NCBI GenBank assembly: GCA_027575765.1
Contig: JANBPT010001197.1
Location: forward strand, 1 to 12,592
Length of the DNA: 12,592 nt
Reading direction: 5' to 3'
Origin: Tieghemiomyces parasiticus
Taxonomy: Eukaryota > Kickxellomycota > Dimargaritomycetes > Dimargaritales > Dimargaritaceae
The translations under genes were made by a program, and so were the position numbers. The notes beneath the pieces were generated by a model. It had not been told where the DNA came from, ran no database searches, and saw nothing but the letters and a program-made list of their open reading frames with translations. Of the stretch, positions 5,139 through 8,640 are shown piece after piece. Within the stretch, counting starts at the first letter, position 1; each line of letters opens with the position of its first letter.

Positions 5139-6875
5139 TTAGAACATACCACCACCCATGCCACCCATACCGCCGGCGGGAGCGGCAGGGGCGGCAGACT
5201 CCTTGGGCGGCGCGTCGACGATCATGCACTCGGAGGTGGTGAGCAGGGAAGCGACACCGGAGGCGTCGACCAGGGCGGTACGGACGACCTTGAGGGGGTC
5301 AAGGATACCACGCTCAATCATGTCACCGTACTCGCCGGTAGCGGCGTCAAAACCGTAGTTGAACTGGTCGAGGTGCTGTTCGATGAGCTTGCCCACCACG
5401 ACGGCGCCCTCGCTGCCGGCATTGTCCACGATGGTCCGGCAGGGGCGCTGCAGGGCCGCGCGCACAATGTTTACACCTAGGTGCTGGTCAAAGTTGGGGG
5501 CCTTGTACTCCGCCAGGCACTGGGTGGCCTTGAGGAGAGCCACGCCACCGCCGGGCACGATACCTTCCTCGACGGCCGCCCGCGTGGCGTTCAAGGCGTC
5601 CACGATACGGTCCTTCTTCTCACCCACCTCGACCTCCGATACGCCACCCACGCGAATGACGGCGACACCGCCCGACAGCTTGGCCAGGCGGTCCTGCAGC
5701 TTCTCGCGCTCGTAGTCAGAGATGCTCGAGTCGGCGATGGCGGCCCGGATCTGTTCGCAGCGCTCGGCGATGCGGTCCTTGGCGCTGGCACTGTCCAGGA
5801 AGACGGTGTCCTCCTTGGTGACCACGACGGAACCAATGGAACCCAGGTCGGTGGTGGTGGCCTTCTCCAGCTTCAGCTCCAGCTCGTCCGAGAAGACAGT
5901 GGCGTTGGTGAGTACCGCCAGATCGCCCAAAATGGACTTGCGGTTGTCGCCAAAGCCGGGGGCCTTGACGGCGCACACCTGCAGCTGCCCGCGCAGCTTG
6001 TTGACAATGCAGGCGGCCAGGGCCTCGCCGTCAATGTCCTCAGCCACAATGAGCAGCGGGCGGCGGCTGGTGGCGGCGGCCTCCAGAGCCGGGATGATGT
6101 CCTGCATCAACGAGATCTTCTTCTCGGACAGCAGGATAAGCGGGTTCTCGAGCTCGACCTTCTGGGTCTTGGGGTTGGTGATGAAGTACGGGGAGATGTA
6201 GCCGCGGTCGAAGCGCATGCCCTCGGTGACCTCAAGCTCGTCTTCGATGGTCTTGCCCTCCTTGCAGGTGATGACACCTTCCTTGCCAACCTTCTCCATG
6301 GCCTGGGCGATCAGCTGGCCGACGGCCTTATCGCCGTTGGCGGAGATGGTGGCAACCTGGGCGATCTCCTCGCTGGTGGTGATGGGACGGGCCTTCTCTT
6401 TGAGGAAGGTGACCACCTTCTCGACGGCGGTCTGCACGCCACGGCGCAGGTCCATGGGGTTGCACCCGGCGGCCACGTTCTTGACACCCTCGGTGAAGAT
6501 GGCACGGGTCAGCACGGTAGCGGTGGTGGTACCGTCACCGGCGGTTTCATTGGTCTTGTTGGCCACGTCCTGCACGAGCTTGGCGCCCAGGTTCTCAAAC
6601 TTGTTCTCAAGGGTGATGCTCTTGGCCACGGTGACACCGTCCTTGGTGATCTTGGGACTGCCGTAGGCCTGCTCGATCAGCACGTTGCGGCCACGCGGGC
6701 CCAGGGTGACGGCCACGGCGTTGGCTAGGATATCGACACCCTTGAGAAGGGAAGCCCGGCCATCAACGCCAAACTTGAGCTCCTTGTGAGTGGAGTAGCA
6801 GCTGGCCTGCAGGATGCCCGAGGCCCGGGCGGGCTTGGCGGCCAAGGAGCGAGTGGTGCGGATCAGGTTGGACAT
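5139..6875 (-). CDS. HSP60: Mitochondrial chaperonin Hsp60 (GroEL-type)
   Basis: This is the 578-aa subunit of the group I chaperonin that folds imported proteins in the mitochondrial matrix using ATP and the Hsp10 lid. Residues 1 to about 28 form a presequence rich in R, S and A, low in acidic residues, with likely cleavage near [11 protein letters not shown]. The mature chain begins KELKFG as in other mitochondrial Hsp60s. Nucleotide-site motifs are LGPRGRNV (58-65), KDGVTVAK with D79 (GroEL D52), [10 protein letters not shown] (113-122) and D426 in the position of GroEL D398. The family signature [12 protein letters not shown] spans 433-444. The C-terminus is the typical [11 protein letters not shown]. 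Length matches yeast Hsp60 (572 aa). The coding part is a single exon with strong G/C third-position bias. The start has A at -3 and yields a good presequence. HSP10 lies head-to-head upstream. Confidence 0.98.
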
Positions 6876-6883
6876 GCTTAGAA

Positions 6884-7156
6884 CTATGTATCGTTACGCG
6901 GAGGGGAGAGGCATGTAGGTTACAGGGGGGGGGTAGTAGAAGCAAAGCTTGGGTGGGGGTGGTTAGATCCGGTACCGATAGCTTTGGCCGTGCCATAGGG
7001 GTAACTAGCTCCAGTAGGTGGGACCGGATCCACGGCCAGTCGCCCCTGCTTAGCCAAGAACCTGGCCAGCGTGACGGGAGGGGCCAGATCGTGTTCCCGG
7101 GAGCGCTGTCGTTCGGGACAGGGAAATGTCGACAGGGAAGGGCAGTGTAAACTTAC
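6884..7156 (-). other. Predicted 5'-UTR intron of HSP60 (273 nt)
   Basis: On the minus strand, ATCAG is followed by a perfect GTAAGT donor (7156-7151). A CTAAC branch site lies at 6966-6962, then a pyrimidine-rich tract including nine C, then an AG acceptor at 6885-6884. The branch-to-acceptor distance of about 79 nt resembles the TIM17 (67) and SmD1 (62) introns. Two upstream ATGs (near 6912 and 6993) lie inside the intron, whereas the exon from the putative TATA box to the donor has none, so splicing gives an AUG-free leader ending eight bases before the start codon. An AG at 6949-6948 lies only 15 nt past the branch site, and another at 6878-6877 is a possible alternative acceptor. Confidence 0.6.
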
Positions 7157-7395
7157 CTGATACAAGCAGGAGTAGGCGTATTAGAGGATGGGGGCGTGAA
7201 TCACTTGAACAGAAGAGCTTTGAAATCCACAATAGGTCTACTGGGATGTGTACAGCAAAGGTGATCAGAAGTAGGAAGGCAGTGGAGGGGCTGGATAATA
7301 CAAGGGCTCTCTGAACGGCAGTCGGCGGGGGGAAGGTTGAATCGACGTGGTGGGAAAGTGACTGGGGGGCGTCGGGTGGGCGGGTTTCGTAAGGC

Positions 7396-7403
7396 CTATT
7401 ATA
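7396..7403 (-). promoter_or_regulatory. Putative TATA element of HSP60
   Basis: The minus strand reads TATAATAG. It lies about 240 nt upstream of the predicted UTR-intron donor. The intervening sequence contains no ATG and is pyrimidine-rich on the HSP60 sense strand, as expected for a leader exon. Confidence 0.4.
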
Positions 7404-7499
7404 ACGCGAGCCGAGAGTCGCCCACCTCCTCCTCCTTCCGTCGCTTTCCACCTTGACTGCTTTGCCCCCTACGCTGCCTGGACTGGGAGTACAAGTACA

Positions 7500-7514
7500 C
7501 TTCTGGAGCCTTCC
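7500..7514. promoter_or_regulatory. Heat-shock-element-like triplet near HSP60
   Basis: The core TTCtgGAgccTTC (7501-7513) is three alternating 5-bp units matching the HSF consensus nTTCnnGAAnnTTCn at 8 of 9 core bases. It lies about 100 bp upstream of the putative HSP60 TATA element. Confidence 0.45.
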
Positions 7515-7624
7515 TGGTCTCTCCTCGCCTCGCCTCCCCTCCGGCCTGCTTCCTTGAAGTGACGGCGAGGTATCTCGGGTCTCCCGGCGACGGCGGGGGG
7601 GGTCACTCGCCGGACACTCGGCCC

Positions 7625-7712
7625 ATTGGCAGACGGAGGTTGTGGTGGGGGAGGGCCGGTTCTCCACAAGCCCGCGGTCCGATCAGTGGCTGCGAAAAAA
7701 AATTGATATTGG
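7625..7712 (-). promoter_or_regulatory. Two CCAAT motifs in the HSP60/HSP10 gap
   Basis: Plus-strand ATTGG occurs at 7625-7629 and 7708-7712, giving two CCAAT pentamers on the minus strand, oriented towards HSP60. They could be sites for an NF-Y/HAP-type factor. A pentamer is short, so chance occurrence is quite possible. Confidence 0.25.
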
Positions 7713-7950
7713 ACTGCTCAACTGCGGCACGCCGCGTCACCCACGAATGAGCGTGGGTGGGGGCAGATTACTTTTGGGGCAAGTGGCGTGTGTGGTCGCT
7801 GCTGGCTAACCGGCGTTTGGGTGTTTCTGCGACCTTCCATGGCCGAAGCCCAGCCTCTTCATCTCAAACACTCGATCACCTCTGACCAGACAGCGGCGCT
7901 AGGGATGGGCGGTGGCTGGTATGCCCACGGTTAGCCCTGTAGCCCTTAAC

Positions 7951-7965
7951 CGAACCTTCTGGACA
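7951..7965. promoter_or_regulatory. Heat-shock-element-like triplet near HSP10
   Basis: The core GAAccTTCtgGAc (7952-7964) matches the HSF consensus nGAAnnTTCnnGAAn at 8 of 9 core bases in three alternating units. It lies about 145 bp upstream of the putative HSP10 TATA element and would suit heat-inducible expression of the co-chaperonin. Confidence 0.5.
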
Positions 7966-8108
7966 CCCCGATCCAAGCGGGGTTCTATGGTGGCAGGAGG
8001 GGAAACGGCAGCCGTCGGCCAGTTTGCAAGCATGCAGACTGGTGAGCCGTTACGCCCGTCGTGACGAAGTCCATCACCCTTGGCGGCCCAACCTAACCCC
8101 GCCAGGCC

Positions 8109-8118
8109 CATAAATAAT
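8109..8118 (+). promoter_or_regulatory. Putative TATA element of HSP10
   Basis: The sequence CATAAATAAT is TATA-like and lies about 210 bp upstream of the HSP10 start. No ATG occurs between the two, and the interval is strongly pyrimidine-rich and includes a long run of C from about 8163. This matches the leader style of the other genes in the window. Confidence 0.45.
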
Positions 8119-8328
8119 CCCCAAGTGGGGAGTACTGGAATAATTCATACCCTAGCAGTCGCCCCCCCCCCGTCACGCTCGCGCCCCGCCAGCCTGTCCT
8201 TGACCCGCCGCTTAACGCCCACGCCCGACACCTTGTTCTTGCTTTGCCCATTTCTGATCCTGTCCGATCCGCCGATCCTTTACCCCTCTACCCCTCCTCC
8301 AATCCTAGTCTACCCTGTCCTAATCACC

Positions 8329-8640
8329 ATGTCCGCCCGTGCCGGTATCCGCAAGGTCATTCCCCTGCTCGACCGCATCCTGGTCAAGCGCATTCAGCCC
8401 GAACAGCGCACCGCCTCCGGCATCTACATTCCCGAGAAGAGCCAGGAGAGCGCCCAGGAGGGTCACATTATGGCCGTTGGCCGGGGCCTCGTCGATAAGG
8501 AAGGCAAGGTGATCCCCCTCCAGCTCAAGGAGGGCGACCGCGTCCTGCTCCCCCAGTTCGGCGGCTCCACGGTCAAGGTCAACAACGAGGACCTGCTTCT
8601 GTTCCGCGAGTCCGAGATCCTGGCCAAGCTTGAGGAATAG
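8329..8640 (+). CDS. HSP10: Mitochondrial co-chaperonin Hsp10 (GroES-type)
   Basis: This 103-aa protein is the heptameric lid that caps the Hsp60 folding chamber in the mitochondrial matrix. It starts MSARAGIRKVIPLLDRILVK, which resembles human Hsp10 (FRKFLPLFDRVLVE) and provides the basic N-terminus that acts as an uncleaved targeting region in this family. The mobile loop that binds Hsp60 is seen as TASGIYIPEKSQ (residues about 28-39), followed by HIMAVGRG. The second conserved block KEGDRVLLPQFGG precedes DLLLFRESEILAKLEE at the C-terminus. Length equals the family norm (about 100-106 aa). The frame stays open upstream to 8080, but that part would cross the TATA element and is Pro-rich leader sequence. 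The chosen ATG has A at -3 and aligns with family starts. It is divergent from HSP60 and convergent with the PUF60-like gene. Confidence 0.97.
   Translation: MSARAGIRKVIPLLDRILVKRIQPEQRTASGIYIPEKSQESAQEGHIMAVGRGLVDKEGKVIPLQLKEGDRVLLPQFGGSTVKVNNEDLLLFRESEILAKLEE

Follow-up and report, generated by a model that had tools for sequence, protein, structure and literature searches.

Results

The window analyzed here, a 12,592-nucleotide stretch of DNA from Tieghemiomyces parasiticus, is one contig (C221) of a 46.5 Mb assembly of 1363 contigs, and it carries the genes for HSP60 and HSP10. HSP60, a mitochondrial type I chaperonin of the GroEL family (578 aa), is encoded on the minus strand at positions 5139..6875 by one uninterrupted frame without introns. 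Profile searches matched the protein to the Pfam family Cpn60_TCP1 (E = 5.4e-73) and to the NCBIfam GroEL equivalog TIGR02348 (740.2 bits compared with a cut-off of 582.1), and its top match among solved structures was a chain named "glomalin" (9k47). Its N-terminus is basic and, judged by eye, resembles a mitochondrial presequence; its C-terminus is GGM-rich. The top three HSP60 matches, among the matches listed, were those of Dispira parvispora (90% identity), Dimargaris cristalligena (89%), and D. verticillata (89%), and in the HSP60 tree the window protein groups with these three Dimargaritales, an order assigned to the Kickxellomycota (NCBI), at 100% SH-aLRT. This grouping agrees with the proposal, made in an earlier sequence-only reading, that the locus belongs to a fungus.

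HSP10, the mitochondrial co-chaperonin of the GroES family (103 aa), is encoded on the plus strand at positions 8329..8640, with its ATG at 8329 and a length of 312 nt including the stop codon. The protein matched Pfam Cpn10 (E = 3.3e-29; 101.2 bits compared with a cut-off of 21.1), and its top solved-structure match was named "mitochondrial 10 kDa heat shock protein". It also matched 15 NCBIfam GroES models, which are bacterial or archaeal, with 0 of the 15 matches at the cut-off.

HSP60 (minus strand, 5139–6875) and HSP10 (plus strand, 8329–8640) are both intact and are arranged divergently, head-to-head, with 1453 bp (6876–8328) between their start codons. The ORF list of the window shows no ATG-initiated frame of at least 80 aa in this gap, and the Rfam scan found no family in it at the gathering score; the two genes are immediate neighbors, with no gene found between them. 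The head-to-head arrangement put forward in the sequence-only reading is thus confirmed, in identities by the Pfam, NCBIfam, and solved-structure matches and in strands on both alleles, and its figure of about 1.45 kb for the gap fits the measured distance. Could the gap hide a gene? The largest frame besides HSP10 lies at 7050–7667 on the minus strand (205 aa) and has a GTG start and no ATG. It was rejected as non-coding, as it differs from its allele by indels that are not in threes. We regard the shared region between the start codons (6876..8328), which is 94.5% identical between the two alleles, as a candidate divergent promoter.

A PUF60/half-pint-like RRM protein with two RRM stretches is encoded at 10296–8881 on the minus strand and converges on HSP10; it scored 192.8 bits against the half-pint model, below the cut-off of 443.95. 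TIM17 is encoded on the plus strand in two exons (10969–11100 and 11280–11624), and its intron has the donor GTAAGT. The RRM gene and TIM17 are also head-to-head.

Chaperonin, HSP70, and HSP90 genes are mostly present as near-identical pairs in the assembly, indicating that two haplotypes were assembled apart. The HSP10 family PF00166 had two matches in the assembly, one in the window and one on the allele contig, C320. Similarly, an HSP60 protein search of the assembly gave two full-length matches (1235.8 bits) on the same two contigs, and the remaining 15 matches scored no higher than 40.5 bits. HSP60 and HSP10 are single-copy per haplotype. C320 aligns to positions 4653–11102 of the window at 96%, with the same gene order and orientation. 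The codon differences between the alleles are all synonymous, 38 synonymous and 0 nonsynonymous in HSP60 and 2 synonymous and 0 nonsynonymous in HSP10, which suggests purifying selection on both genes.

Is the linkage found in other fungi? We scored HSP60 and HSP10 as linked when the records of one species report a contig of equal size, which makes it nearly certain that both genes lie on one contig. The comparison comprised fungi and a metagenome contig, scored co-location on a contig and not gene orientation, and was tallied by eye from three protein lists (120 matches listed of 8000, 120 of 154, and 120 of 5056). Among the matches listed, 29 species or contigs had records for both genes, which were on the same contig in 9 and on different contigs in 16; the other 4 (Gigaspora margarita, Entrophospora sp. 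SA101, Coemansia thaxteri, and Mucor saturninus) were set aside, because their records each cover multiple contigs or members. Phycomyces blakesleeanus was scored as "different", although its records are of the same multi-contig, multi-member kind.

The sequence-only reading had named unlinked genes in all close relatives as the finding that would favor a recent chance pairing. The relatives proved to be linked: among the matches listed, all three other testable Dimargaritales have both genes on one contig, namely Dispira parvispora (contig size 15233), Dimargaris cristalligena (46038, each record representing more than one contig), and Dimargaris verticillata (11447). Furthermore, three Glomeromycotina are linked and have consecutive gene numbers: Ambispora leptoticha (contig size 27436; 13410_t/13409_t), Acaulospora morrowiae (5659; 1632_t/1633_t), and Geosiphon pyriformis (2355860; G9A89_017233/017234). 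Both genes are also present on a metagenome contig of 5044 bp (the HSP10 record represents more than one contig) and probably on one contig of Smittium angustum (98623; the HSP10 record is labelled Furculomyces boomerangus, with a longest contig of 98623), and Dichotomocladium elegans has them on the same scaffold of 951 kb, linkage there being at the level of the scaffold only.

The 16 with genes on different contigs, again among the matches listed, are 13 Mucorales, Blastocladiella britannica, Rhizophlyctis rosea, and Thermomyces dupontii. Under the group names that we take to apply to the compared species, unlinked genes occur in four fungal groups (Mucorales, Blastocladiomycota, Chytridiomycota, and Pezizomycotina), the last three represented by one species each. 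Short contigs may mask linkage in Blastocladiella (43.7 and 10.1 kb), Apophysomyces (31.6 and 24.1 kb), and Circinella minor (a 16-kb HSP10 contig).

We mapped the linkage label on an HSP60 tree of 40 records, built by a quick method and rooted on Blastocladiella by choice. Linkage was scored for 28 records, the 19 unlinked ones representing 16 species, and 12 of the 40, including Dichotomocladium, were unscored. The label requires 3 changes over the 28 scored records compared with a mean of 7.8 when shuffled, the root state not being fixed. Linkage is therefore distributed clade-wise, like any inherited trait.

Does the gap contain signals for divergent transcription? A bidirectional promoter is defined by start sites of transcription within 1 kb of each other. 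The splice-donor motif CAG/GTAAGT at 7151..7159 on the minus strand, which has the same GTAAGT as the TIM17 intron, is identical in the allele and is expected only 0.008 times per gap from base composition. It probably belongs to an HSP60 5′UTR intron, and HSP60 transcription therefore most likely starts upstream of this donor (7159–7151). Putative TATA-like boxes are located about 700 bp apart, on the HSP60 side at 7398..7404 (minus strand; its core, TTATAA, reads on both strands) and on the HSP10 side at 8109..8116 (plus strand). Together with the 5′UTR donor, these boxes suggest start sites less than 1 kb apart.

Two heat-shock-element-like sites, each with three alternating units and 1 mismatch of 9, are located at 7501..7513 and 7952..7964. 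Both are identical in the allele, which over 26 positions would have a 23% chance without constraint, and they are the only two such sites common to the window and allele contigs. Shuffling the gap 200 times gave an expectation of 0.17 three-unit sites with at most 1 mismatch (P = 0.015, uncorrected), and the background at 14 other loci of the genome is 9 such sites in 63.8 kb, or 0.14 per kb. When up to 2 mismatches were allowed, the excess disappeared, the gap having 4 three-unit sites compared with 2.69 expected (P = 0.31) and no four-unit site; with up to 3 mismatches, it had 4 four-unit sites (P = 0.02). A sigma-70/terminator scan of the gap gave nothing useful, that promoter type being wrong for this genome.

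Similar sites were looked for upstream of 25 other loci (12 HSP70, not counting the exon fragments L025 and L026, 5 HSP90, and 8 CCT-type). The HSP70 and HSP90 gene types were judged from the N-termini. As the first M of the longest frame marked the end of each upstream stretch, genes with an early intron may be misplaced. Sites with no more than one mismatch preceded both alleles of the mtHSP70-like gene, both alleles of the cytosolic-HSP90-like gene, and 1 of the 8 CCT-type loci. No such site was found upstream of any of the five other HSP70-family pairs, including the HSP70 judged to be cytosolic, or upstream of the ER-type HSP90 and the TRAP1-like pair. The genome encodes heat-shock-factor-type domains in 21 stretches. 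Shared regulation of HSP60 and HSP10 is plausible from the motifs in the gap.

Discussion

HSP60 and HSP10 are on different chromosomes in budding yeast, and the sequence-only reading had drawn a contrast with that species. The layout is no surprise among fungi as a whole, and budding yeast was the wrong yardstick, because a survey published in 2010 had listed the pair for fungi; further fungal reports are possible. The portions available to us of that survey, which covered 64 eukaryotes (PMC2871058), list the HSP60/HSP10 pair in 14 species in Table 1 under the codes Fb, Fc, and M, that is, Basidiomycota, Chytridiomycota, and animals. The human divergent-pair table of the same survey includes HSP60/HSP10 with a conservation of 0.39 and a GO value of 0.71, equal to those of the Table 1 row, and we therefore take the fungal row to be a divergent pair. 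The text of the survey differs from its table, placing two mitochondrial heat-shock proteins in Pezizomycotina, and the code M is "Mammals" in the legend and metazoa in the text; where the two disagree, we followed the table. The pair appears in PMC2670823 in the reference list only, and PMC5560861 makes no mention of "chaperon" or "heat shock".

We propose that an old fungal, probably opisthokont, divergent linkage has been retained at this locus and kept by shared heat-shock-factor control in the gap, a reading to which we assign a probability of about 0.68. One region would drive HSP60 leftward and HSP10 rightward, so that chamber and lid would be produced together. The old linkage would have been lost several times over in separate fungal lines and kept elsewhere since heat-shock-factor control, exerted within the gap, would be common to both promoters. 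We think that such co-regulation is the likeliest reason for the linkage. The co-linkage in Dimargaritales and Glomeromycotina, taken together with the survey data available from PMC2871058, rules out a recent chance pairing and points to retention with several losses. Of the two origins that the sequence-only reading had left side by side, ancestral or independent, an old linkage is consequently preferred, and the opisthokont date is not proven. Counter to such an age, 16 of the 29 cases among the matches listed are unlinked, including Blastocladiella and Rhizophlyctis, and an opisthokont origin therefore needs several losses. The linkage nevertheless probably has its root at the opisthokont ancestor. 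More tentatively, and at slightly less than even odds, the pair may be an opisthokont-age cis-regulatory unit kept by its heat-shock-factor sites, lost in Mucorales, ascomycetes, Blastocladiella, and Rhizophlyctis, and retained in Dimargaritales and Glomeromycotina.

Could the neighborhood instead be conserved without a shared promoter? Two one-way promoters might lie in the 1.45-kb gap, the linkage being passive or kept otherwise. The length of the gap, the distance between the TATA-like boxes, and the presence of one heat-shock-element-like site upstream of each box would suit such an arrangement. On the other hand, the linkage persists in Dimargaritales and Glomeromycotina while it is missing in other lines, and conserved divergent fungal pairs tend toward functional relatedness, according to the available portions of PMC2871058. 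We consider separate promoters possible but somewhat doubtful.

It is unlikely that the pairing arose independently of the animal pair, whether once, in the ancestor of non-flagellated fungi, or twice, in Kickxellomycota and in Glomeromycotina. Selection could bring together the partners of one machine, and Blastocladiella britannica and Rhizophlyctis rosea, whose genes are on different contigs, branch outside in the tree, the root of which was chosen on Blastocladiella. However, Table 1 of PMC2871058, in the form available here, has the pair in Chytridiomycota, Basidiomycota, and animals, and repeated gain of this exact divergent pair would be less likely than its repeated loss.

That the two genes are recent chance neighbors in one species, without meaning, is highly improbable. 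Divergent neighbors are common, as the RRM gene and TIM17 illustrate, but HSP60 and HSP10 share one contig in 3/3 testable Dimargaritales and carry consecutive numbers in three Glomeromycotina. The chance that a pair named beforehand would be both adjacent and divergent would be about 1/(2N), or ~5e-5 if 10,000 genes are assumed. Finally, an assembly misjoin, which the sequence-only reading had named as a finding that would undo the pair and which such a fragmented assembly might invite, is extremely unlikely, as C320, the separately assembled allele contig, shows the same continuous structure with a gap that differs by about 5.5%, and both genes share one contig in related species.

The retained linkage proposed here extends the known occurrence of the pair to two fungal groups, Dimargaritales and Glomeromycotina, that are not among the codes for HSP60/HSP10 in the available table of PMC2871058. 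These added groups strengthen the case for a great age of the back-to-back arrangement known from animals. The value of the locus lies in extra taxa and a clear test rather than in a new principle: linked and unlinked lineages can be compared for co-expression of the two subunits, which would be a cheap phylogenetic test of what holds eukaryotic genes together.

How does the locus compare with known systems? The bacterial groES-groEL operon is co-directional, with groES followed by groEL. The same two subunits are linked here, apparently likewise for joint expression, but as divergent nuclear genes; this orientation rules out a groES-groEL operon retained as such and indicates that the arrangement was not simply inherited as an operon. 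The mammalian HSPD1/HSPE1 genes, reportedly described by Ryan in 1997 and by Hansen in 2003 as a bidirectional gene pair, offer a closer likeness: the same two genes are head-to-head, with none between them, and the gap has heat-shock-element-type sites, putative ones at this locus. The human gap is only 49 bp (intergenic distance; PMC2871058, Table 2, as available), compared with 1453 bp between the start codons here. Furthermore, HSF1 binds the shared HSP60/HSP10 promoter in mouse cells under heat and mitochondrial stress, where the heat-shock element has at least four units (available portions of PMC7262932), whereas the T. parasiticus gap has weak three-unit sites in what would be a shared promoter.

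Neighborhood of the Chaperonin Pair

The chaperonin pair adjoins the window's second head-to-head pair (8881–11624), in which a PUF60-like RRM gene (10296–8881, minus strand) and TIM17 (10969–11100 and 11280–11624, plus strand) are arranged with their start codons 672 bp apart. The left part of the window (1–5138) is more divergent from the allele, the second haplotype copy, than the chaperonin half, with an identity of 91.7% over positions 196–4660 compared with 96.1% in the chaperonin half. A glycine/lysine-rich open frame of 100 aa lies here on the minus strand (482–784), and a Pfam search found no match for it.

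Among the listed HSP60 relatives, the 741-aa HSP60 model of Mortierella sp. GBA43 (P0103) carries PF03656, which we take to be Pam16, as a second domain; two genes may have been fused in the annotation, or a mitochondrial import gene may lie next to HSP60.

Stress-Related Genes Elsewhere in the Genome

Heat-shock-factor-type DNA-binding domains were found in 21 stretches of the whole assembly (including loci L032–L035), corresponding to ~10 loci per haplotype when the rows were paired by eye. The assembly also encodes a mitochondrial-looking, TRAP1-like HSP90 of 789 aa (locus L030, 1405–3771, minus strand; allele at L031), whose top solved-structure matches are TRAP1/HSP75 (E ~1e-157), with HtpG and HSP90 ranking behind. 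A TRAP1-type HSP90 in a Dimargaritales fungus may be of interest; to our knowledge, yeast has no TRAP1.
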